Made by a program: the position numbers and the translations under genes. The notes under the pieces are model-generated. The model had not been told where the DNA came from, did not search any database, and saw only the letters and a program-made list of their open reading frames with translations. Positions 1-32,880 of a DNA stretch of 39,030 nucleotides are shown in pieces; within the stretch, counting starts at the first letter, position 1; each line of letters starts with the position of its first letter. The stretch comes from Pseudomonas sp. BN102 (GTDB lineage: Bacteria > Pseudomonadota > Gammaproteobacteria > Pseudomonadales > Pseudomonadaceae): positions 1 through 39,030 of the forward strand of contig NZ_SSON01000049.1 in the NCBI RefSeq assembly GCF_029871245.1. Direction: 5' to 3'.

Positions 1-1188
1 GGCGTAGGCCAGGCCGATGATATGGCCGAGGGTGGCGGAGAACTCGCAGGAGGTGACGTTGCCGCTGATGTCCGACCCCTTGAGTACCAGGTGGCCCTCC
101 AGCGGCTGCGGGCTGCCCTTCGGCAGGCTGAAGCCCACCAGCTTGCGCTTCAGCGGTTGCGCTTCAAGGATCTCGATGGAGCGCTTGCCGACGAAGAAGG
201 CCTTCTTGCGGCCGATGGCCCATTCCATGTCGATCTCGCCCGGATGGGTCATGCCGTCGGTGTCCTGACTGATGATCACGTGGCCCTTTTCCAGGCGCAG
301 GAGGCGCTGGGTCTCGACGCCGAAGGGACGAATGCCGAACTCGGTGCCGGCGGCCATCAGCGCGTCCCACAGCTTGCCGCCGTGACGGGCGGGGACGTGG
401 ATTTCGTATCCCAGTTCACCGACGAAGCCGACTCGCATCAGCCGCGCCGGAATACCGGCCACGGTGCCGGTGCGCACGGCGAGGTAGGGGAAGCCTTCGG
501 CGGACAGGTCGACGTCCTCGCAGAGCTTCTCCAGCACCTGGCGCGACAGCGGCCCGGCCAGGTTCACCGCAGCCAGGGCAGCGGTGACGTTGGCGATGTC
601 CACATTGAGGCGCCACTGGGCGTTCCACTTGAGCATCTGCTGGTAGATGCGGTCCACGCCGCTGGTGGTGGCGGTGACATAGAAGTGGTTGTCGGCCAGC
701 CGCGCGCAGACGCCATCATCGATCACCACACCCTGTTCGTTGGTCATCAGTGCGTAGCGGGTACGTGCCACCGGCTGCTTCTTGAAGGGCAGGGTGTAGA
801 TGCGCTCCAGCAACTCGGCCGCGTCCGGGCCACGTACGTCGAGGCCGCCCAGGGTGGAGACGTCGATCAGGCCGACTTTCTCGCGCACATGGCGCGCCTC
901 TTCCTGCATGCAGCGTTCACGGTCTTCGGCCTTGCCGTAGAACGCCGGCCGCTGCCAGATACCGGCCGGCATGAGCTTGGCCCCGGCTTGCACATGGCGA
1001 TTGTGCATGGGCGTCTGGCGGTAGGGGTCGAAGGCACGGCCGGCGACGTGGGCCAGCCTCTCCGCTTCGAAGGGCGGGCGCGCGGTGGTCACGCCGGTTT
1101 CGCTGATACTGCGGCGGGTGGCCTGGGCCACCAGGCGCGCGGTGGGTAGTGCCGAGTGGCGGCCCTGGGATGGGCCCATGCCGAAATT
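1..1188 (-). pseudogene. soxA: Sarcosine oxidase alpha subunit, C-terminal fragment (broken and cut by window edge)
   Basis: Reading the minus strand from about 1188 gives a continuous frame beginning near GMGPSQGRHS, running through an aminomethyltransferase (GcvT-like) region with VGFVGELGYEIHVP, FGVETQRLLRLEKGH and GEIDMEWAIGRKKAFFVG, and leaving the window at position 1 still open. These match the C-terminal folate-binding half of heterotetrameric sarcosine oxidase alpha subunits, which demethylate sarcosine to glycine and pass the one-carbon unit to tetrahydrofolate. Family members are about 1,000 residues. Here the N-terminal FAD/NAD-binding half is absent: upstream of the GMGPSQGR motif the frame enters sequence belonging to an mvaU-like gene on the other strand and meets a stop at 1225-1227. 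The gene is therefore decapitated and probably non-functional. A related opine-oxidase-type subunit is an alternative identity. Confidence 0.8.
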
Positions 1189-1447
1189 GGAGTTCGAACG
1201 CAAGCTGCGGCAGCTGATGGACGGTTACGGGAAGAAACTGGGCGATATCATTACCATTCTGCAGCCGCCGGCAGGCCGTACGAAGCTTGGGGTGCCGGCG
1301 AAGGGAAAGCGGCGTGAGCGCGAGGTCAAACGTTACAAAAATCCGCACACCAACGAAGTCGTTGAGACCAAGGGCGGCAACCACAAGGTATTGAAGGTCT
1401 GGAAGCAGGAGTACGGCGCCGCAGTCGTCGACAGTTGGATGCAATAA
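1178..1447 (+). pseudogene. mvaU: MvaT/MvaU-family H-NS-like protein, C-terminal fragment
   Basis: The frame encodes KLEFERKLRQLMDGYGKK followed by the signature DNA-binding end KNPHTNEVVETKGGNHK and a terminal VDSWMQ, closest in memory to P. aeruginosa MvaU. MvaT and MvaU are xenogeneic silencers that bind AT-rich DNA through the C-terminal domain and oligomerise through an N-terminal coiled coil. The first 30 or so residues of the family are missing. Sequence upstream of about 1181 belongs to soxA on the opposite strand. An ATG at 1178, made at the junction, could start an 89-residue product containing part of the coiled coil and the whole DNA-binding domain, but no ribosome site is evident. 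I treat it as a truncated gene; expression of a DNA-binding-only fragment is possible but unproven. Confidence 0.85.
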
Positions 1448-1595
1448 GCCACGACTTCGAGAGGGGGCGCATCGGACAAACCGCTCGGCGTCTCACTCTT
1501 CCAGAAGTCCGTCAGCTTGAATGAAGGGAACGTGGGCAAATTCGCCGCAAGGGTGTTCCAGGATCTCAGGCGCCGGCTTTAATTGCGGTGCTGGA

Positions 1596-1937
1596 TCACG
1601 GCTCACCCTCGTCAAACAGGTGGCTTAGCTCGTGCTCTCGGCGGAGGGTGGCCATTGCGTAGTCGAAGCAGAGCTTGCACAGGCGTAGCCCTTCGCGCTC
1701 GCCATCTCGCCACTGCGCCTGAAGCACACCATGCCCGGTTTCGGCAGTGCTAGTTCCACACACGTCGCACAGAACCGTGTTCTTCAGTTGAATGGCGCCA
1801 CCATTGGCCAGGTCGCCGTCCAGTTCCAGGATGTCGCCCGCCTTCCATCCAGCGGCCTGGAGTAGGTCGTCCGGCAGCTCCAAGATTAGGTCACCGCTGC
1901 CGTCAGCGGCGTCGCGGCACATCAATTTCCAGCTCAT
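1596..1937 (-). CDS. Small cysteine-rich protein with AbrB-like N-terminus
   Basis: A 113-residue protein of unknown function. Residues 1-52 contain LILELPDDLLQAAGWKAGD, which resembles the swapped-hairpin fold of AbrB/MazE-type DNA-binding domains. Residues 57-90 carry two CxxC pairs (CDVC and CKLC) spaced like a zinc ribbon, and the tail reads LRREHELSHLFDEGEP. The ATG at 1937 is preceded by AGGAGG eight bases upstream, so the start is secure. The cysteine-rich half is paralogous to the frameshifted gene at 4342-4643. It is divergent from the Xre-like gene at 2213 across about 275 bases. A regulatory role is only an inference from the AbrB-like segment. Confidence 0.7.
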   Translation of the reverse strand: MSWKLMCRDAADGSGDLILELPDDLLQAAGWKAGDILELDGDLANGGAIQLKNTVLCDVCGTSTAETGHGVLQAQWRDGEREGLRLCKLCFDYAMATLRREHELSHLFDEGEP

Positions 1938-2212
1938 TGGCCAAACCTCCTAGGGATTTGGGCAGCGATGATTATCCTCGCTTCCGGCCTAAGCTGCCCC
2001 GGGCGAGCAGGTTGGCTATCTGCACTCACGTCGGAACTTAGACGGTGTCGGCACTTGCGTCAGCCCCCCGTCCTCACGGTAAGGTGCCTTACCAGTACCG
2101 CCGGCGTAGAATCCTGGGGCCGCCCTAGTAAAGCACTCTCCCAGTGCCCATTCCTCATGAGGCCTCAGGATGGGAGGGCAGGGGGGCCGGCAGTACACCG
2201 AGGACTATTAAG

Positions 2213-2671
2213 ATGGTAGCTCGCGAGACATCCACCACTGCACTAGAAACCTTGGTGCAGCGGGCGGCCGAACAAGCAGCGCAGGCCGGGCTTTCAGCAG
2301 AGGCTTTCGCAGTGCCCGGCACCAGTATGACGCTCAACGAGCTGCTTCACGCCGCGCGGCGAGCGCCACTTCTTAGGAAGCGTCCGCTGGTGTGCCGCGC
2401 GTTGGGCATTTCTGAACGAACTTTGCGGCGCTGGCTGCACGAGCCTTCTGCGCGCCTCAGTCCCGCCCAGGGGGAGCGCTTGCTCAGACTGTTTGCCGTT
2501 TCCGCCTATGCGGAAGCTGTGTTTGGTTCCGGCGTCGCAGCAGAACGCTGGCTAACCGTCCCGGCTAGGGGGCTAGACCGGCAGGTGCCGTTGGACCTGA
2601 TCAAAGAGCCCGCCGACTACGAGCAGCTGGCCGCCTTTCTGGTGCGGCTCGAGTATTGTGTATACCAGTAA
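2213..2671 (+). CDS. MbcA/ParS/Xre-type antitoxin-like protein without adjacent RES toxin
   Basis: A 152-residue protein. Residues about 55-100 form a helix-turn-helix region (LRKRPLVCRALGISERTLRRW), and the C-terminus (AERWLTVPARG, ending LAAFLVRLEYCVYQ) resembles the toxin-binding domain of MbcA/ParS/Xre antitoxins. In known systems these neutralise a RES-domain NAD-degrading toxin encoded immediately downstream and repress the operon. Here the 249 bases downstream have no RES-like frame, and the next gene is an inositol-monophosphatase homologue. I chose the ATG at 2213 because the earlier candidate at 2144 would add a low-complexity extension; the ribosome site (GAGG at 2200) is modest. 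It could be an orphan antitoxin or regulator. Confidence 0.7.
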   Translation: MVARETSTTALETLVQRAAEQAAQAGLSAEAFAVPGTSMTLNELLHAARRAPLLRKRPLVCRALGISERTLRRWLHEPSARLSPAQGERLLRLFAVSAYAEAVFGSGVAAERWLTVPARGLDRQVPLDLIKEPADYEQLAAFLVRLEYCVYQ

Positions 2672-2920
2672 GGGCCAATCTCGCCTGGCACGTTGGCTGC
2701 CTCAGTGCGCGGTAACCAACGCAGGTGGCGGTCGAATCTCCAGCTCGGTGCTTGGCACTTGAGCGCGGCGAACAGAGAAAACACCTCGTGAGGCGAGGGG
2801 AGGGGAGGCAGCCTCAGGAGGCGGCGGTAGTTAGGTACGTCTGGATGCACAGGATAATTCCTGCCCTGTCGCCGGCCAGAACTGGGTTCTATCTTCACTA
2901 GCTCAATACAGGCTCCGTAC

Positions 2921-3733
2921 ATGCACCAGCCCGACCTCAAAACCTTGCTCGACCAAGTAGTAGCTCAGGTGCTCCGGGCCGGGAAGCGATTGTTTGCTGA
3001 ATGGGTCCGACCCGAGGGGCCGCGCGGTCATGGTGACAAGGCGCCAGTGGACGTGGAGATCGAGCAACAACTGCGTGAAGCGTTACTAGAACTGTTGCCC
3101 TGCGACTTCTGGGGCGAGGAAACTGGGCATGTCCTGACCGGAGACTCGTGGTGTTGGGTGATTGATCCCAACGACGGCACCAGCGACTTCCTGAAGGGCC
3201 GAAAAGGCTCGGCCATCTCGGTCGGGCTCTTGCGCGATGCACTGCCGGTACTGGGTGTCGTGCATGCGCCGGTTACGCCAGATCGTGGCGCTGACTGCAT
3301 CGCTTGGGCCGAGGGATTGCCGCACCTGTTGCGCAATGGCCAACCAGTCGTGAATGACCTCCGTCAGCAGCGGCTAAGTGACCTGGCCGTGGTCATGGTG
3401 AGTGCGGCTGCCGAGGCTAAACCTCAGGAGAACGCGGAGCTCTGTGCGCCCGCTCAGTTTCACGCGATGCCAAGCATCGCCTACCGCCTGGCGCGAGTCG
3501 CGGCCGGTGATGCGGTTTGCGCAGTCTCGCTGTATCCGGTGTCGGCCCATGACGTGGTCGCCGGGCACGCGTTGCTACTTGCCAGTGGCGGAGTCCTGCT
3601 TGACCAGGATGGCCAGCCAATCCAGTACCGCACTGAGAGCGAAATGGCCGTCGTGTCGAATCGCTGCTTCGGTGGCGCGCCGCAAGCCTGCCAAGACTTG
3701 CTAAGGCGTGACTGGGAGCGGGTACTGGGGTAA
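2921..3733 (+). CDS. Inositol monophosphatase / CysQ-superfamily phosphatase
   Basis: A 270-residue metal-dependent sugar-phosphatase fold protein. Expected Mg-binding residues are visible: EET at 66-68, DPNDGT at 82-87 (usually DPIDGT or DPLDGT, so Asn84 is unusual) and the C-terminal Asp in HDVVAG near residue 210. The length is normal for the family, which includes inositol monophosphatase, fructose-1,6-bisphosphatase-like enzymes and 3'-phosphoadenosine 5'-phosphate phosphatase (CysQ). Substrate cannot be told from sequence. No convincing ribosome site precedes the ATG at 2921. It sits 249 bases after the Xre-like gene and is followed by a gene-poor stretch holding the dif-like site. Confidence 0.75.
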   Translation: MHQPDLKTLLDQVVAQVLRAGKRLFAEWVRPEGPRGHGDKAPVDVEIEQQLREALLELLPCDFWGEETGHVLTGDSWCWVIDPNDGTSDFLKGRKGSAISVGLLRDALPVLGVVHAPVTPDRGADCIAWAEGLPHLLRNGQPVVNDLRQQRLSDLAVVMVSAAAEAKPQENAELCAPAQFHAMPSIAYRLARVAAGDAVCAVSLYPVSAHDVVAGHALLLASGGVLLDQDGQPIQYRTESEMAVVSNRCFGGAPQACQDLLRRDWERVLG

Positions 3734-3996
3734 GAGGTATGAATCAATTTGGAGAGGCAGAGGACTTAATGGTCGCCGCACCCGGAGGCTCAACTTGCCT
3801 TACAGTCCCAGAGTGGAGTCCCACGTTGCATTCCTCGCACGGCTACGTCCGCTGCGGAGTGACAGGAGGAGTGCAACTAAAGATTCTCGAATGTGTGGCG
3901 AGCGTTTTTTCAAAGGATTAGTTCTCGAAATTTCAACTTTTTAGTTCGGAGCGCTGGGGCGGGGTGCTCACAACGGCTGTTATGACATAGCACCTG

Positions 3997-4024
3997 ATTT
4001 AACATAATATAGATTATGCGTACT
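3997..4024 (-). other. dif: dif-like XerC/XerD recombination site
   Basis: On the minus strand the 28 bases read as an 11-base XerC arm AGTACGCATAA, a 6-base centre TCTATA and an 11-base XerD arm TTATGTTAAAT. From memory, E. coli dif is GGTGCGCATAA, TGTATA, TTATGTTAAAT: the XerD arm is identical, the centre differs at one base and the XerC arm at two. XerC and XerD resolve chromosome dimers at dif under control of the FtsK translocase. FtsK-orienting KOPS motifs support a true chromosomal dif. GGGNAGGG occurs on the + strand at 787, 2176 and 2797, left of the site. To the right I found only the complement CCCTNCCC, at 10430, 11477, 16286, 31253, 31750, 32149, 32249, 33172 and 33983. A mobile-element copy of dif is the alternative. 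Confidence 0.85.
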
Positions 4025-4077
4025 CGCGGATGCTCACATGGGGATGCTGGGGCTGCGAATTTCACTTCGCATAATCT
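4011..4077. repeat. Inverted pair of XerC-arm-like sequences
   Basis: AGATTATGCG at 4011-4020 (inside the dif-like site) is repeated in perfect inversion as CGCATAATCT at 4068-4077. The second copy lies in ACTTCGCATAA (4064-4074), which looks like another XerC arm, but the sequence after a 6-base centre (GTGGTCGCTCG) does not resemble an XerD arm. It may be an attachment-site scar of an element integrated by XerC/XerD. Confidence 0.55.
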
Positions 4078-4079
4078 GG

Positions 4080-4287
4080 TGTGGTCGCTCGCAATTCATG
4101 CGACTTCCAAGCAGCTCGTGAGACACCCAATGAAATCAAAGTGTTGGATTACGGTGTCTCACGAATTCCTTGGAATATCGGTAGAGTCCGATGGCGCAAT
4201 ACTTGCTGCTCCAAATCGTCCGCCGACGAAATTCAGGATGCATCCCAGTATTGTTGTGGTCGCTAGCTACTGATAAGACTTCCAAGC
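4080..4287 (+). repeat. Direct repeat pair with a variable 12-base core
   Basis: TGTGGTCGCT, 12 unrelated bases, then GACTTCCAAGC occurs at 4080-4112 and again at 4255-4287. The 21 flanking bases are identical in both copies while the 12-base core is completely different. Sequences outside the repeats do not match, so this is not a simple tandem duplication. Function unknown. Confidence 0.6.
4116..4164. repeat. 12-bp perfect inverted repeat
   Basis: TCGTGAGACACC at 4116-4127 is matched exactly by GGTGTCTCACGA at 4153-4164, separated by 25 bases. No T-run follows on either strand, so a terminator is unlikely. It lies between the two direct repeats and could be a folded recombination site or a protein-binding dyad. 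Confidence 0.6.
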
Positions 4288-6774: not shown

Positions 6775-6786
6775 ACACTTTTCCTC

Positions 6787-9561: not shown

Positions 9562-11043
9562 TCAATCTGCCGTTCTCATGTTGTCATTACTCCGAGCCAG
9601 ATCACGCTCCATGTGCAGCCTGACGTAATGCGTTTGCCAAGCGGACAAGCGCTCCAACTCCGCACTTGCTCTGAGCACGGTGTCGTCATCTCCGAAGCGC
9701 CCAATCAGTTGAACACCCGCGGGAATCCCTTGCTCATTCCAGTACAGCGGCACATTGGCTGCAGGCTGGCCGGATGCATTGATGATCGCAAGGAACATGG
9801 TGTATCGCGCACCTTTCAATCTGAATGCCAGGAAGTCGTCATCCATCGACAGGGTTCCCAGCTTGACCGGGAGCTGAGTGAGCGTGGGAGTCAGCACCAG
9901 GTCGAACCCACGCATGTACCGCGCCATCTCACGCGAAATCTGATGGAAGCAGGCTATCGCCGAGATGTAGTCAGAGGCTCGAATCTTCTTGCCGTAGTGA
10001 TAGGCACCGAGAATCGCGGGTTCGAGAAGTCCTCTCCATTGCTCACTGGCCTTGTCGCCGGCAACGGTCTCGATGGAGACCACGGCGTTGGCTGCGATCA
10101 CGTTGATGAGGGAATTCACGAACCTGTCGAAATCAATCTCGGGCGGGCCGACGTCGATCACTTCGTGTCCGTTCCGAGTGAGCAGTCGCTCAGCCAGATC
10201 CACTGCAGCCAGGCAATCGGCGTCGACAGGAATATCGTTCCACGTAGACACCCATTTGGCGACCCGAAGCGGTCGATCGAAAGGCTTGCCCAGCCCAGCC
10301 AGGAAGGACTCCGGCGTGCGTGGAGCCGCGTAGGGAGCACCTGGGTCGAAGCCCGCAATCGCGTCGAGAACGGCGGCTGTATCCCGGACCGTACGGGTGA
10401 TGACGCCATCGGTTGCGAGACCGCCCCACCCCTCCCCTCGCGCCGGCCCCATTGGCAGGAGCCCTCGCGAAGGCTTCAAGCCAAAGACACCGCAGCAGGA
10501 TGCGGGGATTCGTATGGACCCTCCTCCATCGCTACCGTGGGCAATGGGCACCACGCCCAATGCGACAGCTACCGCCGAGCCGCCGCTGGAGCCACCTGGC
10601 GATCGCGCAGGATCCCAAGGGTTGAGCGTTGGACCACCATTCGCGACGGCTTCGGTCGTGGGCGCCATGCACAGCTCCGGGACCGTCGTCCTGGCGAAGC
10701 TGATAAAGCCGGCCGCCTCGAACCGCTCCACCAGGGTGCTATCGAAACTGAACTGCGTGTCGCGAAACATCCGCGAGCCCATGGACGATGGCAGGCGCCT
10801 TGAGGCAAGCCCGGAATCCTTCAGCAGGAACGGCAGGCCTCCAAATGGCCCGATCAGCTGCGCCGTCCTGGCCATCTCCAGGGCTTCCTCGAATCGCGGG
10901 TAGCACAGCGCATTCAAGGGCATCGCCCGTTCCCGGGCGAGTTGCACCGCCGTCGTCATCAATTCGAAGGCCGAGGTCTCGCCCTTGCGCAGCAGGGAGG
11001 CAAGTGCGAGTCCATCAAGCCTGCTGTAATCCGCTGGACGCAT
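9562..11043 (-). CDS. Amidase signature family hydrolase
   Basis: A 493-residue amidase. The Ser-cisSer-Lys triad is visible: Lys75 in FLLKDSG, the cis-serine within GGSSGGS (150-156) and the nucleophile Ser176 in GSDGGGSIRIP. These enzymes hydrolyse amides, including aryl amides, nylon-oligomer-like and indole acetamide substrates; the actual substrate is unknown. I start at ATG 11043 because CAGGAG lies upstream, rather than nine codons earlier. It is the last gene of a minus-strand run (oxidoreductase, LysR, RarD-like, amidase) and ends near 9562. Confidence 0.9.
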   Translation of the reverse strand: MRPADYSRLDGLALASLLRKGETSAFELMTTAVQLARERAMPLNALCYPRFEEALEMARTAQLIGPFGGLPFLLKDSGLASRRLPSSMGSRMFRDTQFSFDSTLVERFEAAGFISFARTTVPELCMAPTTEAVANGGPTLNPWDPARSPGGSSGGSAVAVALGVVPIAHGSDGGGSIRIPASCCGVFGLKPSRGLLPMGPARGEGWGGLATDGVITRTVRDTAAVLDAIAGFDPGAPYAAPRTPESFLAGLGKPFDRPLRVAKWVSTWNDIPVDADCLAAVDLAERLLTRNGHEVIDVGPPEIDFDRFVNSLINVIAANAVVSIETVAGDKASEQWRGLLEPAILGAYHYGKKIRASDYISAIACFHQISREMARYMRGFDLVLTPTLTQLPVKLGTLSMDDDFLAFRLKGARYTMFLAIINASGQPAANVPLYWNEQGIPAGVQLIGRFGDDDTVLRASAELERLSAWQTHYVRLHMERDLARSNDNMRTAD

Positions 11044-11082
11044 AAAAGACTCCTGGCGAAAGCACTTCAAAATGTGGTCGGG

Positions 11083-12066
11083 CTACTTCTGACAACTACA
11101 GGGCTGCGCTTCGTGCAATTGCCGGGACATGCCCTGGTCTAGGCAGACCGACGTCCAAAGATCGGTAGGCCTGGTGGCCGACGGGGTTTTCCTTGCTTCG
11201 CGACCAAGGTGACGCACACCCTCCAGCACGAGCAGGCCAACAGCGATCCAGATAGGAATGTAGGTCAGCCATTCCTCAGGCTGGATTTGCTCTCCAATGA
11301 TCAGGGCCACGCCCACCATCAGCACAGGCTCGACATAGCCCAGCAAACCAAAGATCCCGAAGGACAGTATGCGGCTGGCAACGATATAGGACATGAAGGC
11401 TGTAGCACTGATCACTGCCAGAATCACGATCAGGATGAGCAGGCGCGGGCTTTGCGCGAAATGTTCGACGCCGGCGCCCTGCCCCAGGATGATCCAGGTA
11501 GCGAAAGGCAGGGTCAGCAGCATGTCGAACCAGAGGCCACCCAGGTGATCGGTTCGCAGCTTTCGGCGCAGGATGAAATAGATCGGCAGGCCAATGGCGA
11601 CCAGCAGCGCTTCCCAGGAGAATCCACCGACCTGGTACAGCTCATGCGCTACGCCAAGGGTGGCCGAGAGAGCTGCCATTTTCTGCAGCTGCGTGAGGCG
11701 CTCGCGATAGAGCAGCCGGCCGACCAACAGCATTGCAAGGGGCAGCAGGAAGTACCCCAGAGACACCTGGAGCCCACGGCCATTGAGGGGAGCCCAGAGG
11801 AACAGCCAAAGCTGAATCCCCAGCAACCCGCTGCTCATGCAGAGCGCCAGGATCAGAATCGGCCTTTTTCTCAAGCGCTCGCCTATCTCGAGCACGCGCT
11901 TCCATTCTCCGCCGATCAGCATGAAGAGCGTGACACAGGGCAGTGTCAGCAGCATGCGCCAACCAAATATTTCCAACCCAGTGAGGGGAACCAGCAAGGT
12001 GGCGTAGTAATACAGGCTCGCAAACATGCATGACGAAACCACCGACAGAGCCACACCCTTGTTCAA
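11083..12066 (-). CDS. rarD: RarD/EamA-type drug-metabolite transporter
   Basis: An integral membrane protein of about 327 residues with about ten hydrophobic segments in two EamA repeats. Motifs such as GWRMLLTLP, SLGYFLLPLAMLLVGRLLYRERL and GYVEPVLMVGVALIIGE are typical of RarD proteins, inner-membrane exporters whose substrate is mostly undefined. A TTG at 12066 giving MNKGVALSVV is preferred: it has GGAGG just upstream and matches the usual RarD N-terminus. An ATG at 12084 has no ribosome site. The tail after residue 290 is polar and unusually long. Only 39 bases separate it from the amidase. Confidence 0.85.
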   Translation of the reverse strand: MNKGVALSVVSSCMFASLYYYATLLVPLTGLEIFGWRMLLTLPCVTLFMLIGGEWKRVLEIGERLRKRPILILALCMSSGLLGIQLWLFLWAPLNGRGLQVSLGYFLLPLAMLLVGRLLYRERLTQLQKMAALSATLGVAHELYQVGGFSWEALLVAIGLPIYFILRRKLRTDHLGGLWFDMLLTLPFATWIILGQGAGVEHFAQSPRLLILIVILAVISATAFMSYIVASRILSFGIFGLLGYVEPVLMVGVALIIGEQIQPEEWLTYIPIWIAVGLLVLEGVRHLGREARKTPSATRPTDLWTSVCLDQGMSRQLHEAQPCSCQK

Positions 12067-12106
12067 GCGACCTCCGTACAGCATTCAAGGACTGGTGAAA
12101 GGACCG

Positions 12107-13042
12107 TCAGGGAGCCCCGATCGTCCAGGGAGCACCATTGACGAATTTCGACTCGATCCATTCCATGAACGCGAGGGTGGTGGCGGGCGAAAACCTCGCC
12201 GAGGGACGTACCAGATAAATCGCCCCCTGAGAATCGAGCTGCCAGTCCGGCAGTACATGAACAAGTCGGCCAGCCGCCAGATCGCGGCTCATCAGCCATT
12301 CACCCGCCCCCAGGATTCCCGTACCGGCCCGCGCCACGGCAAGCAGCGATTCACTGTCGTTGGAGATGATCGATCCCCGGGTCACCACCGTTTCTTGCCT
12401 ATCACCGTTGGACAGACGCCATTCCGGAAAGGACGCGAACCCGGTAAACCCCAGGCAATTGTGGAAAGCGAGATCCCCCGGCGAGCCCGGCACCCCATGT
12501 TCCTCCAGGTACGCAGGCGATGCGCACAGGATGCGGCGATGATCCCCCAGCTTCCGGGCAACCAGGCGGCTGTCGCTCAGCTCTCCGATCCGGATGGCCA
12601 GGTCATAGCCTTCGGCAATGATGTCCACGAAGCGCTCGCTGTAATCCGCCACGAGTGACACCTGGGGATGGGCCTTGAGGAACTCCGGCAACATGGGCGC
12701 CAACCACAACCGGCCCATTGACGCAGGCAAGGCCAGGCGCAGGATTCCGCGCACTTCCGCTGCGCCCGACGATGCCTCCTGCTCCGCTTCGTTGATCGCC
12801 CCTATGGCCGCTCGCAGACGTTGCTCCAGTTGCGCACCAGCACTGGTCATCCGGACCTGGCGAGTCGACCTTTCGATCAGGCGAACCCCTAGCCGCTTCT
12901 CCAGGGCCGCCACGCGCTTGGACACCACCGTGGGATGCCGCTGCAACAAACGGCCGGCGGCTACAAACGAACCTTCCGACGCCACGGCGAGCAAGGCAGC
13001 GATCTCGTCACTCTGACTGGCGTCGAGCAGATCCTGTGTCAT
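12107..13042 (-). CDS. LysR-family transcriptional regulator
   Basis: A 311-residue LysR-type regulator. The winged helix-turn-helix covers residues 15-70 (LAVASEGSFVAAGRLLQRHPT, then VSKRVAALEKRLGVRLIERS), followed by an effector-binding domain with GILRLALPASMGRLWLAP. The start ATG overlaps the stop of the upstream oxidoreductase as ATGA, so the two are translationally coupled. LysR genes are more often divergent from their targets; here the regulator is inside the operon it may control. Confidence 0.9.
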   Translation of the reverse strand: MTQDLLDASQSDEIAALLAVASEGSFVAAGRLLQRHPTVVSKRVAALEKRLGVRLIERSTRQVRMTSAGAQLEQRLRAAIGAINEAEQEASSGAAEVRGILRLALPASMGRLWLAPMLPEFLKAHPQVSLVADYSERFVDIIAEGYDLAIRIGELSDSRLVARKLGDHRRILCASPAYLEEHGVPGSPGDLAFHNCLGFTGFASFPEWRLSNGDRQETVVTRGSIISNDSESLLAVARAGTGILGAGEWLMSRDLAAGRLVHVLPDWQLDSQGAIYLVRPSARFSPATTLAFMEWIESKFVNGAPWTIGAP

Positions 13043-14013
13043 GGCTTCAGGACAATCGCGCCGGCTGATTGCCCTGACTCCAGTGCGGCGTGGGCGTGTG
13101 CGGCGTCTGCAAGCGGATAGCTGCCCCAGATGCGTGGCGTGACGATGCCCGAAGCGATGGCCTCGAGGAGGTCCCGTGCACGCTCCTGGTACTCGGAAGC
13201 GGTAGCGGTATGTGCGGCCAACGATGGCCGAGTCAGAAACAATGACCCCTTGCTATTGAGTGTCGCCAGTTCCACAGGTGCCGGTGTGCCGGAGGAGGCG
13301 CCAAAGGACACCATGGTGCCGCGCGGTCGCAAGCTATCCAGGGAAGCCTCGAAGGAAACGCGACCGATCGGGTCAAACACCACATCCGCCTTTCGGCCAT
13401 CGGTGATGCGCGCGATGTCTGCCGCAAGAGTGACTGGATCGAACACCAGCACAGCATCGCAACCGAGGCCTTTCGCTCTCTCGAGGCTGGCCTCCTTTGA
13501 CACCACGCCAATGACGAATGCCCCGAGATGCTTGGCCCACTGCGCCATGATTTCGCCGAGCCCACCCGCTACGCCGTAAAGCACCATGGTCGTGCCCGGG
13601 CCGACGGGATAGGTGGTCTTGAGCAGATACTGGGCCGTGATTCCCTTGAACATCACGCCGGCGGCATCATCGAACGACATCTCGTCCGGAATTCTGACCA
13701 GTCGCTCGGCGGGGTACAGCCGTGCGCTGGCATAGGCGCCGATGGGGCCGGTCGCATACGCCACGCGATCACCCACGCGGACACTGGTGACACCCGGTCC
13801 AATTGCCGTGACTCGGCCTGCGCCTTCCAGCCCCAGACCGGAAGGAAGAGCGATGGGCACTGCGCCATCCCGTTGCGTCACATCCAGGTAATTGACACCG
13901 ACGGCTACCTGCTCGAGCCAAGCCTCACCAGGCCCGGGTTCGCTCTCCCCCAGGTTCTCGATCCGCAATACCTCGGGTCCGCCGACCCGGTCTAACCGAA
14001 TTACTTGAACCAT
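13039..14013 (-). CDS. Quinone oxidoreductase / zinc-independent medium-chain dehydrogenase
   Basis: A 324-residue protein of the medium-chain dehydrogenase family, quinone oxidoreductase (Qor) type. It shows VGVNYLDVTQRDG, LPSGLGLEGAGRV and the NADPH-binding LYGVAGGLGEIMAQWAK, and lacks the structural zinc cysteines of alcohol dehydrogenases. Such enzymes reduce quinones or activated alkenes with NADPH. The ATG at 14013 follows GGAG six bases upstream; a GTG four codons earlier is possible. It heads the minus-strand gene run. Confidence 0.88.
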   Translation of the reverse strand: MVQVIRLDRVGGPEVLRIENLGESEPGPGEAWLEQVAVGVNYLDVTQRDGAVPIALPSGLGLEGAGRVTAIGPGVTSVRVGDRVAYATGPIGAYASARLYPAERLVRIPDEMSFDDAAGVMFKGITAQYLLKTTYPVGPGTTMVLYGVAGGLGEIMAQWAKHLGAFVIGVVSKEASLERAKGLGCDAVLVFDPVTLAADIARITDGRKADVVFDPIGRVSFEASLDSLRPRGTMVSFGASSGTPAPVELATLNSKGSLFLTRPSLAAHTATASEYQERARDLLEAIASGIVTPRIWGSYPLADAAHAHAALESGQSAGAIVLKP

Positions 14014-14290
14014 CTCTGTCTCCACGTGCTGAACATGGCCCCGTGACGAGGATGGGATGGATTATGTGTGCCTTGCCCGCATTGAACAATTTGGTTCTCT
14101 TGCATCTATTTGCTGCATGTGATGCATCAATAGGCGACTCGATTCTTTCGACGCTATTGCCGGCGGCACCCGCAGGTCTGGCTGTCGTTTCGGAAGTTCT
14201 TTTTTCCTGAAGTACCAGTCCCGACCTTCTGAGACTACTTGGCGCTAATCGCCATAGCGATTCATTTTAAAAACAGTGACACACGGCCCT

Positions 14291-14318
14291 AAACTTTCTT
14301 TCGTGGATGCTGGTCAGA
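14291..14318 (+). promoter_or_regulatory. Candidate AlgU (sigma-22) promoter of algD
   Basis: AAACTT at 14291-14296 and TCAGA at 14314-14318 are separated by 17 bases, matching the AlgU consensus GAACTT-N16/17-TCTGA except for one base in each element. Transcription would start near 14325 and give a leader of about 320 nt. The P. aeruginosa algD leader is also long, about 370 nt. AlgU controls algD in mucoid pseudomonads. Confidence 0.6.
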
Positions 14319-14495
14319 GTTTCATCCCCAGCTGTTCATCGATTGCAGGGTTCTTTGCCAAGTTCGATCCAAGGGCTCGAAAACGGCAAGCAAGACATTA
14401 CATGAACCGCAGTTCGAGACAGGTCAGTACGAGGCATTTTGGATAGCCTCGCCTTGTCGCAAAAACTTCCAGGAAGGATCAGGTACCGACTTTTT

Positions 14496-14540
14496 AAGCC
14501 GGAAGCCGCCTTATGTCAGGGCGCAATCGGCTTCCCGGTT
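14496..14540 (+). other. Stem-loop in the algD leader
   Basis: GGAAGCCG (14501-14508) pairs exactly with CGGCTTCC (14528-14535), and the stem extends with two mismatches to 14496 and 14540. Upstream, the GGA-rich CCAGGAAGGATCAGG (14469-14483) resembles sites bound by Rsm-type translational repressors. Function inferred only. Confidence 0.4.
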
Positions 14541-14641
14541 ATTTTGCCGAGCACAAGAATTGAGTCGATTCACTTATCGGTTATGCATTTTATTGGCGTA
14601 CGTAATGAACCTAATGAAATTGACGACTAAGGAGAATAAAA

Positions 14642-15952
14642 ATGCGTCTAAGCATTTTTGGGCTCGGCTATGTCGGTGCGGTCTGCGCCGGGTGTCTTTC
14701 CGCGCGGGGTCATGAAGTTGTGGGCGTGGACGTTTCGTCCACCAAGGTAGCGTTGATCAACCAGGGGAAATCCCCAATCGTCGAACCGGGATTGCAGGAG
14801 TTGCTGCAGCAGGGCATTCAGGCCGGTCTCCTGCGGGGTACTACCGATGTATCGGAGGCCATCGCCGCCACGGATGTGTCGCTGCTCTGCGTCGGCACGC
14901 CGAGCAAGAAGAACGGCGACCTGGCCCTCAATTTCATCGAAGGCGTCTGCCGCGAGATTGGTTTCGCCCTGCGCGACAAGTCAGAGCGGCACACTGTCGT
15001 CGTGCGCAGCACGGTGTTGCCGGGCACGGTGAAAAACGTGGTGATCCCGATTCTCGAAGACTGCTCCGGCAAGCAGGCGGGCGTGGACTTCGGCGTCGCG
15101 GTCAATCCCGAGTTCCTCCGCGAAAGCACCGCGATCCAGGATTACAACTTTCCGCCGATGACGGTGATCGGCGAACTGGACCGGCATTCCGGCGACTTGC
15201 TGCAGTCCCTCTACGAAGAGCTCGATGCCCCTGTGGTGCGCAAAAGCATCGAAGTGGCGGAGATGATCAAGTACAGCTGCAACGTCTGGCATGCGACCAA
15301 GGTCACCTTCGCCAACGAGATCGGCAACATTGCCAAGGCCGTTGGCGTCGATGGCCGCGAGGTGATGGATGTGGTCTGCCAGGACCACAAGCTCAACTTG
15401 TCCAGGTACTACATGCGCCCTGGTTTCGCCTTCGGCGGCTCCTGCCTGCCCAAGGATGTGCGCGCCCTCTCCTACCGTGCCGGCCAGCTGGATGTGGCAA
15501 CGCCACTGATCGGGGCCCTGATGCACAGCAACGAGGCGCAGGTTCTGCGCGCCCTTGACATCATTGCCGGGTACGACAAGCGCAAGGTCGCCTTGCTCGG
15601 CCTGTCGTTCAAGGCGGGTACCGACGACCTGCGCGAAAGCCCGCTGGTACAGCTGGCCGAGATGCTGATCGGCAAGGGCTATGACCTCAGCATCTACGAC
15701 CGCAACGTCGAGTACGCCCGGGTCCACGGTGCCAACAAGGACTACATCGAATCGAAGATCCCCCATGTGTCGTCATTGCTCAACAGCGATTTCGACAGCG
15801 TGATCGCGAATGCGGAGGTCATCGTCCTCGGCAATGCCGATGAGTGCTTCCGGGCACTCGTCCAGCAAGTGCCGGAAGGCAAGCATGTCGTAGACCTGGT
15901 TGGCTTCATGGCCCATGGCAGCGACGACAGCCGCGAAGGCATCTGTTGGTGA
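14642..15952 (+). CDS. algD: GDP-mannose 6-dehydrogenase
   Basis: This 436-residue cytosolic enzyme oxidises GDP-mannose to GDP-mannuronic acid with two NAD per turnover, the committed step of alginate synthesis. The length equals the P. aeruginosa protein. The N-terminal dinucleotide-binding loop is FGLGYVGAV (residues 6-14), the catalytic Cys268 lies in FGGSCLPKD, and the C-terminal domain has LLGLSFKAGTDDLRESP. The start follows AAGGAG. It is the first gene of the alginate operon, with the candidate AlgU promoter about 320 bases upstream, and alg8 follows after 80 bases. Confidence 0.98.
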   Translation: MRLSIFGLGYVGAVCAGCLSARGHEVVGVDVSSTKVALINQGKSPIVEPGLQELLQQGIQAGLLRGTTDVSEAIAATDVSLLCVGTPSKKNGDLALNFIEGVCREIGFALRDKSERHTVVVRSTVLPGTVKNVVIPILEDCSGKQAGVDFGVAVNPEFLRESTAIQDYNFPPMTVIGELDRHSGDLLQSLYEELDAPVVRKSIEVAEMIKYSCNVWHATKVTFANEIGNIAKAVGVDGREVMDVVCQDHKLNLSRYYMRPGFAFGGSCLPKDVRALSYRAGQLDVATPLIGALMHSNEAQVLRALDIIAGYDKRKVALLGLSFKAGTDDLRESPLVQLAEMLIGKGYDLSIYDRNVEYARVHGANKDYIESKIPHVSSLLNSDFDSVIANAEVIVLGNADECFRALVQQVPEGKHVVDLVGFMAHGSDDSREGICW

Positions 15953-16032
15953 GCAACTGAAACCGGGTGGCGATGGCTTGGCCGAACAGACGAAGCCATC
16001 GCCCTGTCCGAAACTGATCACGGACGCAGACG

Positions 16033-17514
16033 ATGGAGAGGCTCACGCAGGGTTTCATCGATATCGCCGGGTGGTTGTTCTACCTCAGCCTGCTGATGGT
16101 CCTCGCCTTGGCAGTACCACAGACGCTTTTCGATCCCACGTCCAGGGACTTCCTCCTGTTGCTCGGCGCGGTCGGCATCTGGCGCTATTCCATGGGGCTC
16201 ACCCATTTCCTCCGCGGCCTGCTGTTCCTCTACGTCGTCTTCCCGCACTACCGGCGCAAGGCGCGTCAGCTCGTCGAGGCGGACGCCCTCCCCCACGTTT
16301 GCCTGCTGGTCACCAGCTTCCGCATCGACGCCCTGACCACCGCCATGGTCTACCGCTCGGTGATCGAGGAAGCCATCGCCTGCGGCCACCCCACCAGCAT
16401 TGTCTGTTCCATAGTCGAGTTGTCCGACGAGTTGCTGGTGAAGCGCATGTGGGCGAGGTACGACCCGCCGGCACGGGTCAAGCTGCACTTCGTGCGCATC
16501 GCCGGCACTGGCAAGCGCGACGGCCTGGCCAATGGTTTTCGCGCCATCTCCCGGCATCTGCCGACGCCTGACGCGGTCGTAGTGGTCATCGATGGCGACA
16601 GCATCCTCCAGCCGGGCATCATCGGCAGGACCGTTCCTTATTTTCGCCTGTTCCCCAGGCTCGGCGGGCTGACCACCAACGAGTTCTGCCATGTGCATGG
16701 CAGCTACATCATGCGCGAGTGGCACAAGCTGCGTTTCGCCCAGCGCCACCTCAACATGTGTTCGATGGCACTCGGCAAGCGAGTGCTGACCATGACCGGG
16801 CGCCTGTCGATGTTCCGCGCTCAGGTGGCGACGGACCCAGGCTTCATCGCCGACGTCGAGAGCGACTATCTCGACCACTGGCGACTCGGCCGATTCCCGT
16901 TCCTCACCGGCGACGACAAGTCCAGCTGGTACAGCCTGATGCGCCTTGGCTACGACACCTTCTACGTGCCGGATGTGGCGATCGACACCATCGAGCACCC
17001 GCCGGAAAAAAGCTTCTTCAAGGCCAGCCGCAAGCTGATGTTCCGCTGGTACGGCAACAACCTGCGGCAGAACTCCCGGGCGATGAGGCTCGGCCCGGGG
17101 CGCCTCGGTCTGTTCACCAGCCTGGTTCTGTTCGACCAGCGCGTGTCGATGTGGACCTGCCTGCTCGGCCTGGCCGTGGCCCTCATCGCCAGTCTCAAGT
17201 ACAGCATCGCCTACCTGCTGATCTACCTGCTTTGGATCGGCTTCACCCGCCTGGTCCTGACCCTGCTGCTGACGGTCACCGGACATCCTGTCGGCCCGGC
17301 TTATCCGCTGCTTCTTTATTACAACCAGATAGTCGGCGCGCTGGTGAAGATCCATGTCTTCTTCCGCCTCGACCAGCAGTCCTGGACGCGCCAGAAAACC
17401 AGGCTCAACCGCAACCTCGGCGGTTTCCAGCGCTGGTTCAATGTCTGGTCGTCACGTTCGATGACCTTTTCAGCCGCCAGTCTGTTCATTGCCACGTTGT
17501 TGCTGGTGGTGTGA
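16033..17514 (+). CDS. alg8: Alginate polymerase catalytic subunit Alg8
   Basis: A 493-residue inner-membrane family-2 glycosyltransferase that polymerises mannuronate from GDP-mannuronate. It has N-terminal membrane segments (residues 12-70), a cytosolic catalytic domain with the donor-binding [10 protein letters not shown] (Asp187 and Asp189), a second acidic cluster [10 protein letters not shown] and the [13 protein letters not shown] segment, then C-terminal membrane spans from about residue 365. It works with Alg44, which supplies cyclic-di-GMP control. The gene follows algD by 80 bases with no visible terminator between. Confidence 0.97.
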
Positions 17515-17547
17515 GCCAAGCCAATGGAATTGAGTAGGAACGTCGCC

Positions 17548-18693
17548 ATGAACACAGCCGTCAACGTCGTGCATGAATCGGAAATCCAGCGTCAGCACGC
17601 CCGGGTGCGGATTCCGGCGAGGATACGTTTCGCCGGAAAGAACCAGCACCTGGTCGAGCACAGCCTGCAGGAGCTTTCCGCCGGCGGATTCAGCTACCTG
17701 GCGGGAAAGCACTCGGTCGCGGTCGGCGACTACCACAAAGGCGAACTGATCTTCGCCATCGACGACCTGGCGCTGGTCATGCGCGTCGAGTTCCAGGTGC
17801 GTTCGGTGGATCCGACCAGCAACCGTGCCGGCTGCCAGTTCCACAACCTCAAGCCGCGCGACATCGTCACCTTGCGCCACCTGATTTCCGCGCACCTTTC
17901 CGGTGAACTGGTCAGCGTCGGTGAGCTGCTCAGTACCCTGCAGCGCGACAACTTCGGCGCACCGCGGAAGAACAAGGGCCACGCGGGACTGGGGTCGTTC
18001 GGTCGCTTTCGAGCAATGGTCCTCAGTCTGGTCGTGCTGGTCATCGGTGTGGTGGCCTTCGTCTTCATCGCTTCGGCTGTGTACGACCTGTACTTCGTCA
18101 CCCATGCCCAGTCCGCACTGGTCACTGTCCCCAGCATGGAGGTGACCATGCCGCGCGAAGGTACGGTGCAAAGCCTGATCGGCGAAGACGGGGTGGTGAC
18201 CAAGGGAGCACCGGTCGCCACCTTCAAGACCTCGATGATGGATATGTTCAAGGGCCAGCTGGCCGACAGCCAGATCAAGCCCGAGCGTCTCGAGGAGTTG
18301 CTGGGCCGGCAGATGAGTGGGACGGTCACCAGCCCATGCGATTGCACCCTGCTCCGCCAACTGGTGGCTGATGGACAGTTCGCCAGCAAGGGTGACGTGA
18401 TCTTCCAGTTCGCTCAGCGTGGCAGCCAGGCCAGCATCGAAGCCAAGTTTCCCTATGCGAAGTTCAGGGCGGTCGCCCCGGGAAACCGGGTCAGCTTCGT
18501 GGTCGCGGGTGAAAACCAGGAGCGCGGCGGAAGTATCGTCAGCAGCAACCTGAACTCCGCCACCATCAACGACCTGTCCACCGATATCCGTGTACAGATC
18601 AAACCTGACGAACCGCTGGACAATGCCCTCGCCGGCCGGCCGGTGGAAGTCAGCGTCACTCGGGGGCCATCGCTTGTATGGCTGATCTATTAG
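17548..18693 (+). CDS. alg44: Alginate co-polymerase with PilZ domain, Alg44
   Basis: A 381-residue inner-membrane protein. The N-terminal PilZ domain binds cyclic-di-GMP and activates Alg8, one membrane span follows at about 152-175 (VLSLVVLVIGVVAFVFIASA), and a periplasmic membrane-fusion-like domain links to the secretion complex. RxxxR is present as Arg15 and Arg19, but the second PilZ motif reads ELSAGG: Glu42 replaces the usual Asp (Asp44 in P. aeruginosa). Ser44 is retained. ATG 17548 is chosen because it gives the family N-terminus MNTAVNVVHESE and has AGGA upstream; an in-frame ATG at 17524 is less likely. Confidence 0.96.
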   Translation: MNTAVNVVHESEIQRQHARVRIPARIRFAGKNQHLVEHSLQELSAGGFSYLAGKHSVAVGDYHKGELIFAIDDLALVMRVEFQVRSVDPTSNRAGCQFHNLKPRDIVTLRHLISAHLSGELVSVGELLSTLQRDNFGAPRKNKGHAGLGSFGRFRAMVLSLVVLVIGVVAFVFIASAVYDLYFVTHAQSALVTVPSMEVTMPREGTVQSLIGEDGVVTKGAPVATFKTSMMDMFKGQLADSQIKPERLEELLGRQMSGTVTSPCDCTLLRQLVADGQFASKGDVIFQFAQRGSQASIEAKFPYAKFRAVAPGNRVSFVVAGENQERGGSIVSSNLNSATINDLSTDIRVQIKPDEPLDNALAGRPVEVSVTRGPSLVWLIY

Positions 18694-18727
18694 CTCCAGG
18701 CGCTGGGGCCCTTTGGAGGACCTGCTC

Positions 18728-20140
18728 GTGGCTGAGATACATGTACGCCCTCTCCTGCTCCTAGGCGTCCTGGGCCTGGCCGGCTGCACCGGCCTGCCCG
18801 ATCAGCGCCTGGCGCAGGAGGCCATGGCCCGCGGCGACACCGCCACTGCCGAACAGAACTATCGCCAGCTCGCCGACCTCGGTTACGCCGACGCCCAGGT
18901 GGGCCTCGCCGACATCCAGCTGGAAACCGGCGACCCCGAGCAGCGGCGCCAGGCCGAGGCGACCTACCGCCAGGCCGCCGCCACCTCACCGCGCGCCGCC
19001 GCGCGCCTGGGACGACTGCTGGCGAGCAAGCCGGGCGCCAGCGAGGCCGAGCAGCGGGAAGCTCAAACGCTGCTCAAGGATGCCATGGCCGCCGGCGAGC
19101 AGAACACGGTGCTGCCGCTGACCCTGCTCTATGTGCAACACCCGCAGACCTTTCCCACGGTCAATGCGCAGCAGCAGGTCAACCAGTGGCGCGCCGAGGG
19201 CCACCCACAGGCGGAACTGGCGCAAGTGCTGCTGTACCGGGCCCAGGGTAGCTACGACCAGCATCTCGACGAAATCGAACGCATCTGCAAGGAGGCCCTG
19301 ACGGTGCAGGATGCCTGCTACGTCGAATTGGCCACGGTTTACCAGAAGCGCGGGCAGCGCGAACAGCAACAAGCCCTGATCGCTCAACTGCAGACTGCCT
19401 ACCAGAACGGCCGGGTGCCACCGCAACGGATCGACTCGGTGGCCCAGGTGCTGGTTGACCCGGCGCTCGGTAAACCTGATTTCGAGGCCGCCAAGGCCCT
19501 GCTGGAACCGATCGCGCCGAGCTATCCGGCGGCCTGGGTGAGCCTCGCTCGCCTGCTCTACGACGCCCCGGACCAGGACAATACCGAGCAGGTGATGGAC
19601 TATCTGCAACGCGCCAGCGATGCCGGCGAATCACGCGCAGAGCTGCTGCTGGGCAAGATCTACTACGAAGGCAAGCTGGTACCGCAGGACCCGGCCAAGG
19701 CCGAGCAGCACCTGCTCAAGGCCGCGGCTACCGAGCCGAGTGCCAACTACTACCTGGGACAGATCTACCGCCGCGGCTATCTCGGCGAGGTAAACCCGGA
19801 CAAGGCTCTCGACCACCTGCTCAGTGCCGCCCGCAGCGGCCACACCAGCGCCGATTACGCCCTTGCGCAGCTGTTCAGCCAGGGCCGTGGAATCCAGCCG
19901 GACCTGGTCAACGCCTACATGTTCAGCCAGCTCGCGGTACAGGCTGGCAAGCCCGAAGCGGCGGCCTATTCCACGCAACTGGCGCAACAGTTGACGCCAG
20001 CCCAGCGCGCCGAAGCGCAAAAGCGACTACAGGCGGAGCGGCAGTTTCGCGGTGATAGCACTATGCTCCGTGCTGCTGCCAGCGGTGACGTTCTCAGTGT
20101 CGAACCGCCCGCTGGCAGCACCGCCGACCTTAGTCCCTAA
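18728..20140 (+). CDS. algK: Alginate secretion lipoprotein AlgK (TPR/Sel1 repeats)
   Basis: A 470-residue outer-membrane lipoprotein scaffold that helps place AlgE and joins the periplasmic alginate complex. The lipobox is LAGC at residues 17-20. The rest is Sel1/TPR-like helical repeats, such as [50 protein letters not shown] and [19 protein letters not shown]. The start is taken as GTG 18728: it is preceded by GGAGG, and the nearby ATG at 18740 is out of frame. The signal peptide is only weakly basic, which is unusual. Confidence 0.95.
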
Positions 20141-20151
20141 CGGAACAGACC

Positions 20152-21606
20152 ATGAAACGACAACAATGGATTCGCGTTAGCCTGACCGTTCCACTGCTCT
20201 GCGGCGCTCCGGCATGGGCCGCGACGATGAACGACAAACCATTCGGGCTCGACATCAAGATCACCGCCCAGTCCGAGGATGACCGCGACCTCGGTACCCG
20301 CGACGGTGGCGACGTCAACGGCATCGGTATCGACGTGCGCCCCTGGTTCTACTTCCAGCGCGGTGACTGGAGCGCCTACGCCATGGCGCAGGCGGTGGCG
20401 GCCACCGACACCATCGAAACCGACCCCCTGCAGTCCCCCGACCTGGAGGAGGGTTCCAGCAGCGTCAGCGACAATGACAATGACCGCCAGGCCGATGACA
20501 GTTACCTGGCGATGCGCGAATTCTGGATCGGCTACTCCGGCTTTACCGCTTACCCGGGCGAAGAGCTGCGCTTCGGCCGCCAGCGCCTGCGCAACGACGA
20601 CAGCCTCTGGCGCGACACCAACATCGAAGCCCTGAACTGGACGTTCGACACCACCCTCCTCCGTGCCCATCTCGGCCTGGCCGAACGCTTCAGCGAGTAC
20701 CGCACCGATATCGACGAACTGGCGCCGGAGGATGAGGACCGTCAGCACCTCTATGGCGACATCGCCACCCAGTGGACGCCCGGCCACTGGGTCGGCCTCA
20801 ACCTGCACTACAGCCACGACGATGGCGACTTGCCCAGCCCCGGTGAAGAGGTCGATCAGTTGGACAAGAACACCACCGGCGACCTCACCTGGGTCGGCTT
20901 GAGCGCCAACAGCGACGCGTTCGACTGGCGCAATCAGCAGACACTGAACTACTGGGCCAGCGTGATCTGGCTGAATGGCGACCGCGACCAGTTGCTCACC
21001 ACCAGCGGACCCGCCGGCCAGCCCATCGCCAGCGGCGAGGAGAGCGCCAATGTCAACGCCTGGGGCACCGACCTCGGCCTGCGCTGGAGTATCGACCCGA
21101 GCTGGCGGGCCGGTATCGCCTACGCCCGTGGCAGCGGCGGCGGTGATGACGGCGAGGACAACTTCCAACAGACCGGACTGGAGAGCAACCGCAACAGCTT
21201 CACCGGGACGCGCTCGCGCGTGCACCGCTTCGGCGAAGCCTTCCGTGGCGAATTGAGCAATTTGCAGGTGGCTACCCTGTTCGGCTCCTGGCAGCTGCGC
21301 GATGAGTATGACGCCAGCCTGGTCTACCACCGCTTCTGGCGCGTCGACGGCGACCAGCCACTCGGCGACAGCGGCGTCAACGCCGCCCTGGTCGAGGACG
21401 ACAAGGACATCGGCCAGGAAGTCGACCTGGTGCTTACCAAGTACTTCAAGGAGGGCCTGCTGCCGGCCTCCATGAGCCAGGCGATCGACGAACCCTCGGC
21501 ACTGGTTCGCTTTCGCGGCGGCCTGTTCCTTTCGGGCGATGCCTATGGCAGTGGCGTCGACTCGAACATGCACCGCGCCATCGTCGATGTGATCTGGCGT
21601 TTCTGA
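20152..21606 (+). CDS. algE: Outer-membrane alginate export porin AlgE
   Basis: A 484-residue beta-barrel through which alginate leaves the cell. The signal peptide ends at about residue 24 (LLCGAPAWA). Many alternating aromatic strands follow, including [39 protein letters not shown] and [19 protein letters not shown], and the chain ends in a C-terminal aromatic (VIWRF), the usual signal for barrel assembly. It starts 11 bases after algK, which encodes its lipoprotein partner. Confidence 0.96.
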
Positions 21607-21626
21607 CCCAGAGGAGGACCGTAACG

Positions 21627-23192: not shown

Positions 23193-23202
23193 GGTGACCC
23201 TC

Positions 23203-24621: not shown

Positions 24622-24628
24622 GGACCGC

Positions 24629-25735: not shown

Positions 25736-25928
25736 TACAGGCGGTGCGCACGGCGGGCGCATCGCACGAACGAGCTTCACGGCGACGCAGAGCGCCTTCC
25801 CACCCCACGTACGGGGTGATGCAACACCCCGATCGCGCCAAGAGGCGACGGGCGAAAGACCTTGCATCACCAGGGGAGAAACGGGTGGGCCGCTTGGCCC
25901 TGACAGTTCTTCAATGGAGGAAACGCGG
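25736..25928 (+). promoter_or_regulatory. algL-algI gap with mutually exclusive hairpins
   Basis: GGGGTG at 25813-25818 can pair with CACCCC at 25801-25806 or with CACCCC at 25825-25830. The overlapping GGTGATGCAA (25815-25824) is perfectly complementary to TTGCATCACC (25862-25871). No T-run follows. This looks like a structured mRNA segment at the border between the export/lyase genes and the acetylation genes; role unknown. Confidence 0.5.
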
Positions 25929-27422: not shown

Positions 27423-27431
27423 GGCAGCGTC

Positions 27432-28580: not shown

Positions 28581-28606
28581 TTCGGGCCCTCAAGGAGCAA
28601 CCGACC

Positions 28607-29266: not shown

Positions 29267-29314
29267 AGCGCCTATGTCGCGCAGCAGCTTCAAGATCACA
29301 ATAGGAGAAACAGC

Positions 29315-30763: not shown

Positions 30764-30777
30764 GCACATGGCGAGGG

Positions 30778-30805
30778 GAGCGGCCAGGCGAGGCCCTGTC
30801 GCTCC
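30778..30805. terminator. GC-rich hairpin after algA, possibly bidirectional terminator
   Basis: GGAGCG (30778-30783) faces CGCTCC (30800-30805), with an inner CAGG/CCTG pairing. It lies between the convergent ends of algA and the small membrane protein gene. No T-run is present, so intrinsic termination is uncertain. Confidence 0.4.
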
Positions 30806-30808
30806 TGG

Positions 30809-32019: not shown

Positions 32020-32028
32020 GAGGTCCTC

Positions 32029-32808: not shown

Positions 32809-32880
32809 GTTGTTCTCCGAAATTGCTGTTGTCGTGGTCATGGAAATTACGTTCACGACTCTGATAAAAAAAGACGACTG

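Follow-up and report, generated by a model that had tools for sequence, protein, structure and literature searches.

Introduction

The closest described counterpart of the site reported here is the chromosomal XerCD/dif system with its KOPS, known from E. coli and P. aeruginosa, with which it shares the 28-bp layout, the XerD arm, the single copy and the switch of KOPS polarity and skew at the site. It differs from that system in nothing of note, the centre and the outer bases of the XerC arm varying as they do in many relatives. The dif site itself is ordinary and of a kind already known; what is apparently new is what its flanks reveal.

Mobile DNA that hunts such sites has been described as well. 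The IS1202 family (ISAjo2 group) provides the 'dif site hunters' of Acinetobacter (PMC10132070; PMC9455709), which are 1.5-kb, single-gene elements with a single orientation and a distance of 5 bp to the XerC site. They share with the Pseudomonadaceae elements described below a TnsB-related DDE transposase, TGT/ACA ends, 5-bp duplications and insertion beside dif. The latter elements, however, have TniB and TniQ (TniQ being marginal in the genome concerned, G010), span tens of kb and may lie on one side of dif or the other, with most of their ends at a distance of 27-53 bp. We rejected their assignment to the IS1202 family, since they are not 1.5-kb, one-gene elements positioned 5 bp from XerC.

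Two other systems invite comparison. The Tn5053/Tn402 res-site hunters combine a TniA-TniB-TniQ core with a site-specific recombination target, as the dif-adjacent elements do, but they target res whereas the Pseudomonadaceae elements adjoin dif, and the Tn5053 resolvase is of the serine type (TniR) whereas in the dif-adjacent elements no serine resolvase was noticed and a Xer-like tyrosine recombinase apparently takes its place near the dif-proximal end. Tn5053-type elements sense res sites that are occupied by resolvase. As for Tn6022 with TnsF, it likewise couples a Tn7-like core to a tyrosine-recombinase-derived partner but it differs from the dif-adjacent elements in having comM as its target and in coding for TnsA and TnsE (PMC10293859, the main text of which lacks the whole word 'dif'). 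No report of Tn7-like elements at dif was found among the literature matches listed (most subscription journals fall outside this scope), nor is there one in the available parts of PMC8373256, PMC8649781, PMC12907356, PMC8987985 and PMC6053426. Both dif and its single-gene hunters of the IS1202 family were known before; Tn7-like ones at dif are apparently new.

Here, we describe the dif region of a Pseudomonadaceae genome in a window that comprises the whole stretch of DNA analysed (39,030 nucleotides). Our main reading, to which we assign a probability of about 0.9 on the strength of sequence comparison, is that the 28 bp in question are the chromosomal dif of this genome and that mobile DNA has a landing zone in the few dozen bp to each side of it.

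The dif site and its polarity

A sequence-only reading of the window had proposed a 28-base dif and had counted its differences from the corresponding sequence of E. coli (none in the XerD arm, one in the centre and two in the XerC arm). Both the position and the layout, two 11-bp arms around a 6-bp centre that match XerC and XerD sites, are correct (Table 1), and the counts hold against the E. coli dif sequence. When the genome itself (6,476,006 bases in 81 contigs, completeness 100%) was searched with the dif pattern, allowing up to two mismatches, a single match was obtained in the 6.48-Mb assembly, at 3997-4024, against 0 control matches. There is no second, better dif elsewhere in these 81 contigs at that tolerance, and since no closer dif occurs in the assembly, this objection, which the same reading had raised against itself, falls away. 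XerD is encoded in the genome, its profile score of 391.5 bits exceeding the curated cut-off. Another protein aligns with the XerD model over its full length at 274.5 bits, short of that cut-off; with this protein as a candidate XerC only, both XerC and XerD would be encoded.

Table 1. Features of the window and their coordinates
Feature	Position	Strand	Remarks
dif	3997..4024	-	28 bp: AGTACGCATAA-TCTATA-TTATGTTAAAT
dif, XerC arm	4014-4024	-	AGTACGCATAA
dif, centre	4008-4013	-	TCTATA
dif, XerD arm	3997-4007	-	TTATGTTAAAT
Spacer beside XerC arm	4025..4063		39 bp; homologous to the G010 insertion stretch (by-eye alignment)
Inverted XerC half-site	4064..4091	+	ACTTCGCATAATCTGG; facing dif across the 39-bp spacer; XerD arm absent
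End of second kind of dif-adjacent element	3874..3955	-	XerD side; three-copy array; 41 bp from dif
KOPS toward dif from left (x3)	787..2804	+	GGGNAGGG; starts 787, 2176, 2797
KOPS toward dif from right (x9)	10430..33990	-	GGGNAGGG; starts 10430, 11477, 16286, 31253, 31750, 32149, 32249, 33172, 33983
CysQ/inositol-monophosphatase-like gene	2921..3733	+	XerD side of dif
Alginate biosynthesis cluster (algD-type to algA-type), chrB and chrA (chromate transporter), pgi	14642-38910		starts ~10 kb from dif

The KOPS that had been listed for the window were recovered at the same 12 sites, 3/3 on the left being on the + strand and 9/9 on the right on the - strand, with none in the opposite orientation (two-sided sign test, p = 0.0005; one-sided Fisher test, p = 0.0045). 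Their number is not above chance (12 in the window versus a shuffle mean of 8.24, with 17/100 shuffles reaching 12); we rejected it as evidence because shuffles match it, and polarity alone counts. Cumulative GC skew in the window is maximal at the end of the bin 3001-4000 and then declines, the sign of the skew changing between this bin and the bin 4001-5000. As the window is a whole 39-kb contig of a draft assembly, wider polarity was measured instead in a closed congener (G014), where counts over 200 kb on each side of dif gave 42+/6- KOPS on the left and 8+/41- on the right. With one copy, the correct layout, a switch of KOPS and skew, and Xer genes, the 28 bp of the window are a dif site.

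The claim that the window marks the replication terminus is too strong as worded. P. aeruginosa PAO1-UW has its switch of skew and KOPS at dif (2.4 Mb), but its replication ends opposite oriC (3.2 Mb), ~0.7-0.8 Mb from dif (PMC6199493). Since replication ends away from dif in that strain, 'segregation terminus' is a more fitting term than 'replication terminus'. By analogy with known biology, the arms AGTACGCATAA and TTATGTTAAAT would be bound by XerC and XerD, respectively, while FtsK would load on the dif-pointing KOPS of both arms, join two dif copies and activate XerD, upon which chromosome dimers would be resolved at this site.

Variation of dif among relatives

The changes in the centre and the XerC arm had been singled out as notable, an impression that comparison with relatives dispels, both being ordinary. 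Across 18 genomes of the genus, the centre is TCTATA in 12, TGTAGA in four and TGTATA in two, and the species collection has TCTATA-centred dif in no fewer than 119 contigs, while the XerC arm AGTACGCATAA recurs in three other genomes (G007, G095 and G252). The site is within one mismatch of the dif pattern in 12/18 genus genomes and more diverged in the other 6/18. On a wider scale, the pattern is matched in at least 337/398 genomes of the family, the outer four bases of the XerC arm varying freely among the matches listed. The idea that these differences signal something special was rejected, since they are common in genus and family. Variation in the 18 genus genomes also extends to the XerD arm, which tends to be better conserved than the rest of dif (TTATGTTAAAT in nine, TTATGTTAAAC in five and TTATGGTAAAT in four).

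Tn7-like transposons beside dif

One such insertion is an 86-kb element in G010, which lies 37 bp from the XerC arm of dif and has the ends AATCC|TGTCGC and GCGACA|AATCC. Its TniA has rve and Mu-transpos_C domains and is matched by TnsB structures (best E 4.6e-47). Profile searches, performed for this genome only, gave a TniB that reaches the cut-off (84.2 bits) and a marginal TniQ (26.6 bits versus a cut-off of 27), and the genes tniA, tniB and marginal tniQ sit just inside the dif-distal end. The stretch that holds this transposon in G010 is uninterrupted in the window (4025-4063) and in G016, and the XerC side of the window is an apparently unoccupied transposon target. Homology searches over genus and family genomes gave no TniA match in the window's own genome, and the case for transposons therefore rests on its relatives.

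At a cut-off of E<=1e-100, TniA of this lineage occurs in 28 of the 398 family genomes, sharing a contig with dif in 19, lying on another contig in eight and accompanied by no recognised dif in one. In all 19 shared-contig cases, tniA points at dif from a distance of 27.6-147.5 kb, lying on the XerC side in 15 and the XerD side in four. Within the genus, the six best TniA homologues belong to the very six genomes that had been noted beforehand from their XerC-side ends, and eight weaker homologues, two in each of four closed or near-closed genomes (G002, G010, G011 and G017), are all >200 kb from dif. No member of the lineage turned up at E<=1e-90 among 369 genomes sampled across the class.

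Element ends were paired in 27 genomes (the one without dif, G349, being dropped). Left tips were taken from up to 1.5 kb before to 450 bp into the tniA frame and right tips from <=110 bp of dif, they were paired by similarity alone with TGT/ACA required, and the flanking 5-mers were compared only afterwards. With this tip-only choice, a 5-bp target duplication is present in 13/27 genomes versus 0/702 mismatched genome pairs. An earlier scoring that gave a bonus for equal 5-mers (16/27 equal, with G143, G172 and G245 also paired) was rejected in favour of tip-only pairing with the mismatched control. When any equal 5-mer among all candidate pairs is counted, tips unscored, the figures are 18/27 for own pairs and 45/702 for mismatched ones. 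Twelve of the 13 duplication-supported ends are 27-53 bp from dif and one is at 96 bp (G383), distances that are bounded by the search since right ends were sought only <=110 bp from dif; nine are on the XerC side and four on the XerD side. In four of the 13 genomes (G110, G121, G221 and G247) the duplication-bearing ends sit on different contigs, so that the duplication ties them together independently. The same pairing found no 5-bp duplication in 14/27 hosts. In three genomes (G005, G008 and G017) the tips agree and the flanking 5-mers differ, which later deletion or exchange would explain. In their TnsB/TniA-type DDE transposase, TGT/ACA ends and 5-bp duplication, the dif-adjacent elements are Tn7-like/Tn5053-like.

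A probable further component is a Xer-like tyrosine recombinase of ~430 aa, whose best model is XerC at 1e-15, far below the cut-off, and which matches none in Pfam. Whole or partial matches to it (tblastn, E<=1e-10) are found <=1.5 kb from dif in 16/21 hosts outside the genus versus 1/29 non-host dif loci, these counts taking matches on either side of dif and not on the transposon side alone (in G383, a partial match is on the side opposite the transposon). By eye, its catalytic residues look complete in G002 and degenerate in G006 and G008. This recombinase could be a cointegrate resolver or a target selector, TnsF of Tn6022 being a precedent for the second role (PMC10293859).

In sum, TniA-TniB-TniQ transposons of relatives are inserted mostly 27-53 bp from either edge of dif with 5-bp duplications, in a fixed orientation that places the tni genes at the far end and the other end beside dif. 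They would most likely find the site by recognising either its DNA or the Xer proteins on it, in a manner comparable to the sensing of resolvase-occupied res by Tn5053-type elements. We consider it likely that a Pseudomonadaceae Tn7-like lineage equipped with TniA/TniB/TniQ, and probably with the Xer-like recombinase as guide or resolvase, hunts dif in this way, bringing large cargo within ~55 bp on either side, tni genes pointing at dif, and leaving dif intact, and that a second, XerD-side element follows a similar distance rule. In the window, the XerC side has a vacant target and a remnant Xer half-site in inverted orientation, and the XerD side has the end of this second kind of element.

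A second kind of element on the XerD side

The XerD-side array (Table 1) begins with a tip made of AG, six bases and GAACTAA (3936-3947), followed by a second copy 23 bp on and an inverted copy 66 bp on. Arrays of the same kind, recognised by regular expression or by eye, begin 43-60 bp past the XerD arm in 8/18 genus genomes, and G013 has a copy that is displaced. In other loci, the array is on the XerD side at 7/165 dif places (two of which are copies of genus genomes and one, L174, is without the AG tip) and on the XerC side at 0/165. Two genomes (G002 and G004) are 100% identical over at least 9,918 bp from the array, starting at about +65 on the XerD side, and unrelated before it, which identifies the array as an element end. 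These two genomes (L067 and L069) belong to different species, and the proteins of the shared DNA resemble, by eye, metal-efflux components. The other end of this element was sought in G002 and not found. The AG tip differs from the TGT of the TniA lineage.

A patchwork around dif

In the 20 kb around dif, similarity between the window and 17 congeners is patchy right up to the edge of dif. Two segments of the window, 5807-7131 (98.8% identical) and 8262-9384 (97.8%), have counterparts in G015 that are adjacent to each other and start 51 bp from dif, and identity to the same genome is 90.6% at 9.6-12.6 kb, a pattern that looks like recent exchange beside dif. The CysQ-like gene has a homologue inside the G010 transposon, where it adjoins the tni genes, and is possibly transposon cargo. 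On the XerC side of dif, G006 and G011 have direct repeats of ~7.0 kb and ~7.5 kb, respectively.

Several other observations concern these flanks. The stretch 4653-5516 has an inverted counterpart (89% identical) across dif in G015, on the XerD side and thus in a mirror-image position, and is 90% identical to DNA at a similar place in G010. On the XerD side of the window there are an Xre/ParS-type antitoxin-like gene (2144-2671) and, at 1085-1447, an MvaT-like silencer gene without its N-terminal third, which abuts the end of a GcvT-like gene match (4-1184; 84% to LT969519.1, a 555-kb P. aeruginosa record classed as a plasmid). Tandem inovirus-like prophages (proteins identified by eye) abut dif at 0-10 kb on the XerC side in G006 and G011 (L071 and L076), and where the repeat copies meet there is a pair of dif-like sites in inverted orientation. 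In another genus, G209 (C1:3901962-3902076) has a second, inverted dif-like site whose XerC arm faces that of dif, 59 bp apart.

Alternative explanations

That the site belongs to a plasmid, chromid or integrated element and is not the chromosome's own could be argued from the contig end 4 kb away, from the acquired DNA on both flanks and from the fact that mobile elements do carry dif-like sites. We regard this as highly improbable, since the match is the only one in the whole assembly, pgi, chrBA and the alginate cluster are on the same contig, KOPS polarity and skew reverse at the site, and congeners have the same kind of site, at which KOPS switch in the closed G014. If the site is taken as the chromosomal dif, the transposons might still have gathered there passively, insertions at the terminus being tolerated or hard to lose with no active targeting. 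The region is indeed rich in several kinds of accessory DNA, and about half of the hosts (the 14/27 above) show no target duplication. Broad tolerance, however, would not place 12/13 duplication-supported ends within so narrow an interval of a 28-bp site, nor turn tniA toward dif in every shared-contig case on both sides, which makes passive clustering unlikely.

Harder to judge is the inverted half-site, which might be the relic of an XerCD-integrating element (phage or other) rather than a functional Xer site or a product of chance, a proposal to which we give even odds. The inverted site is complete in G016 at the same 39-bp spacing, which among 168 dif contexts is seen only there and in the window, and by eye the window copy has lost its XerD arm through a small deletion. 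Also in keeping with a relic are the homologous site that G010 has beyond its 86-kb transposon, the inovirus-like prophages against dif in G006 and G011 with their paired inverted sites, and the inverted second site of G209. Yet the XerC arms face each other here whereas it is the XerD arm of the first site that points inward in the arrays of G006 and G011, no recognised phage genes are near the half-site in the window, and its 10-bp match alone is about as frequent as chance predicts (2 occurrences with <=1 mismatch versus 1.43 expected). Single-strand folds are unremarkable too (z -1.39 for the window half-site pair and -0.88 for the complete pair of G016), for which reason the half-site was not accepted as a demonstrated hairpin. 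Of the two inverted, hairpin-forming dif-like sites of a CTX-phi-like attP, a complete pair is seen in G016 but not in the window.

Concluding remarks

Transposons with cargo would find a safe harbour at a site that is present once per genome and that hardly any host can afford to lose, and a landing zone at dif would help explain why accessory genes gather at the terminus. For Tn7-like elements in general, those of the Pseudomonadaceae that adjoin dif offer a natural test of (i) how new target selectors are gained and (ii) whether it is dif DNA that is read or the Xer proteins bound to it.
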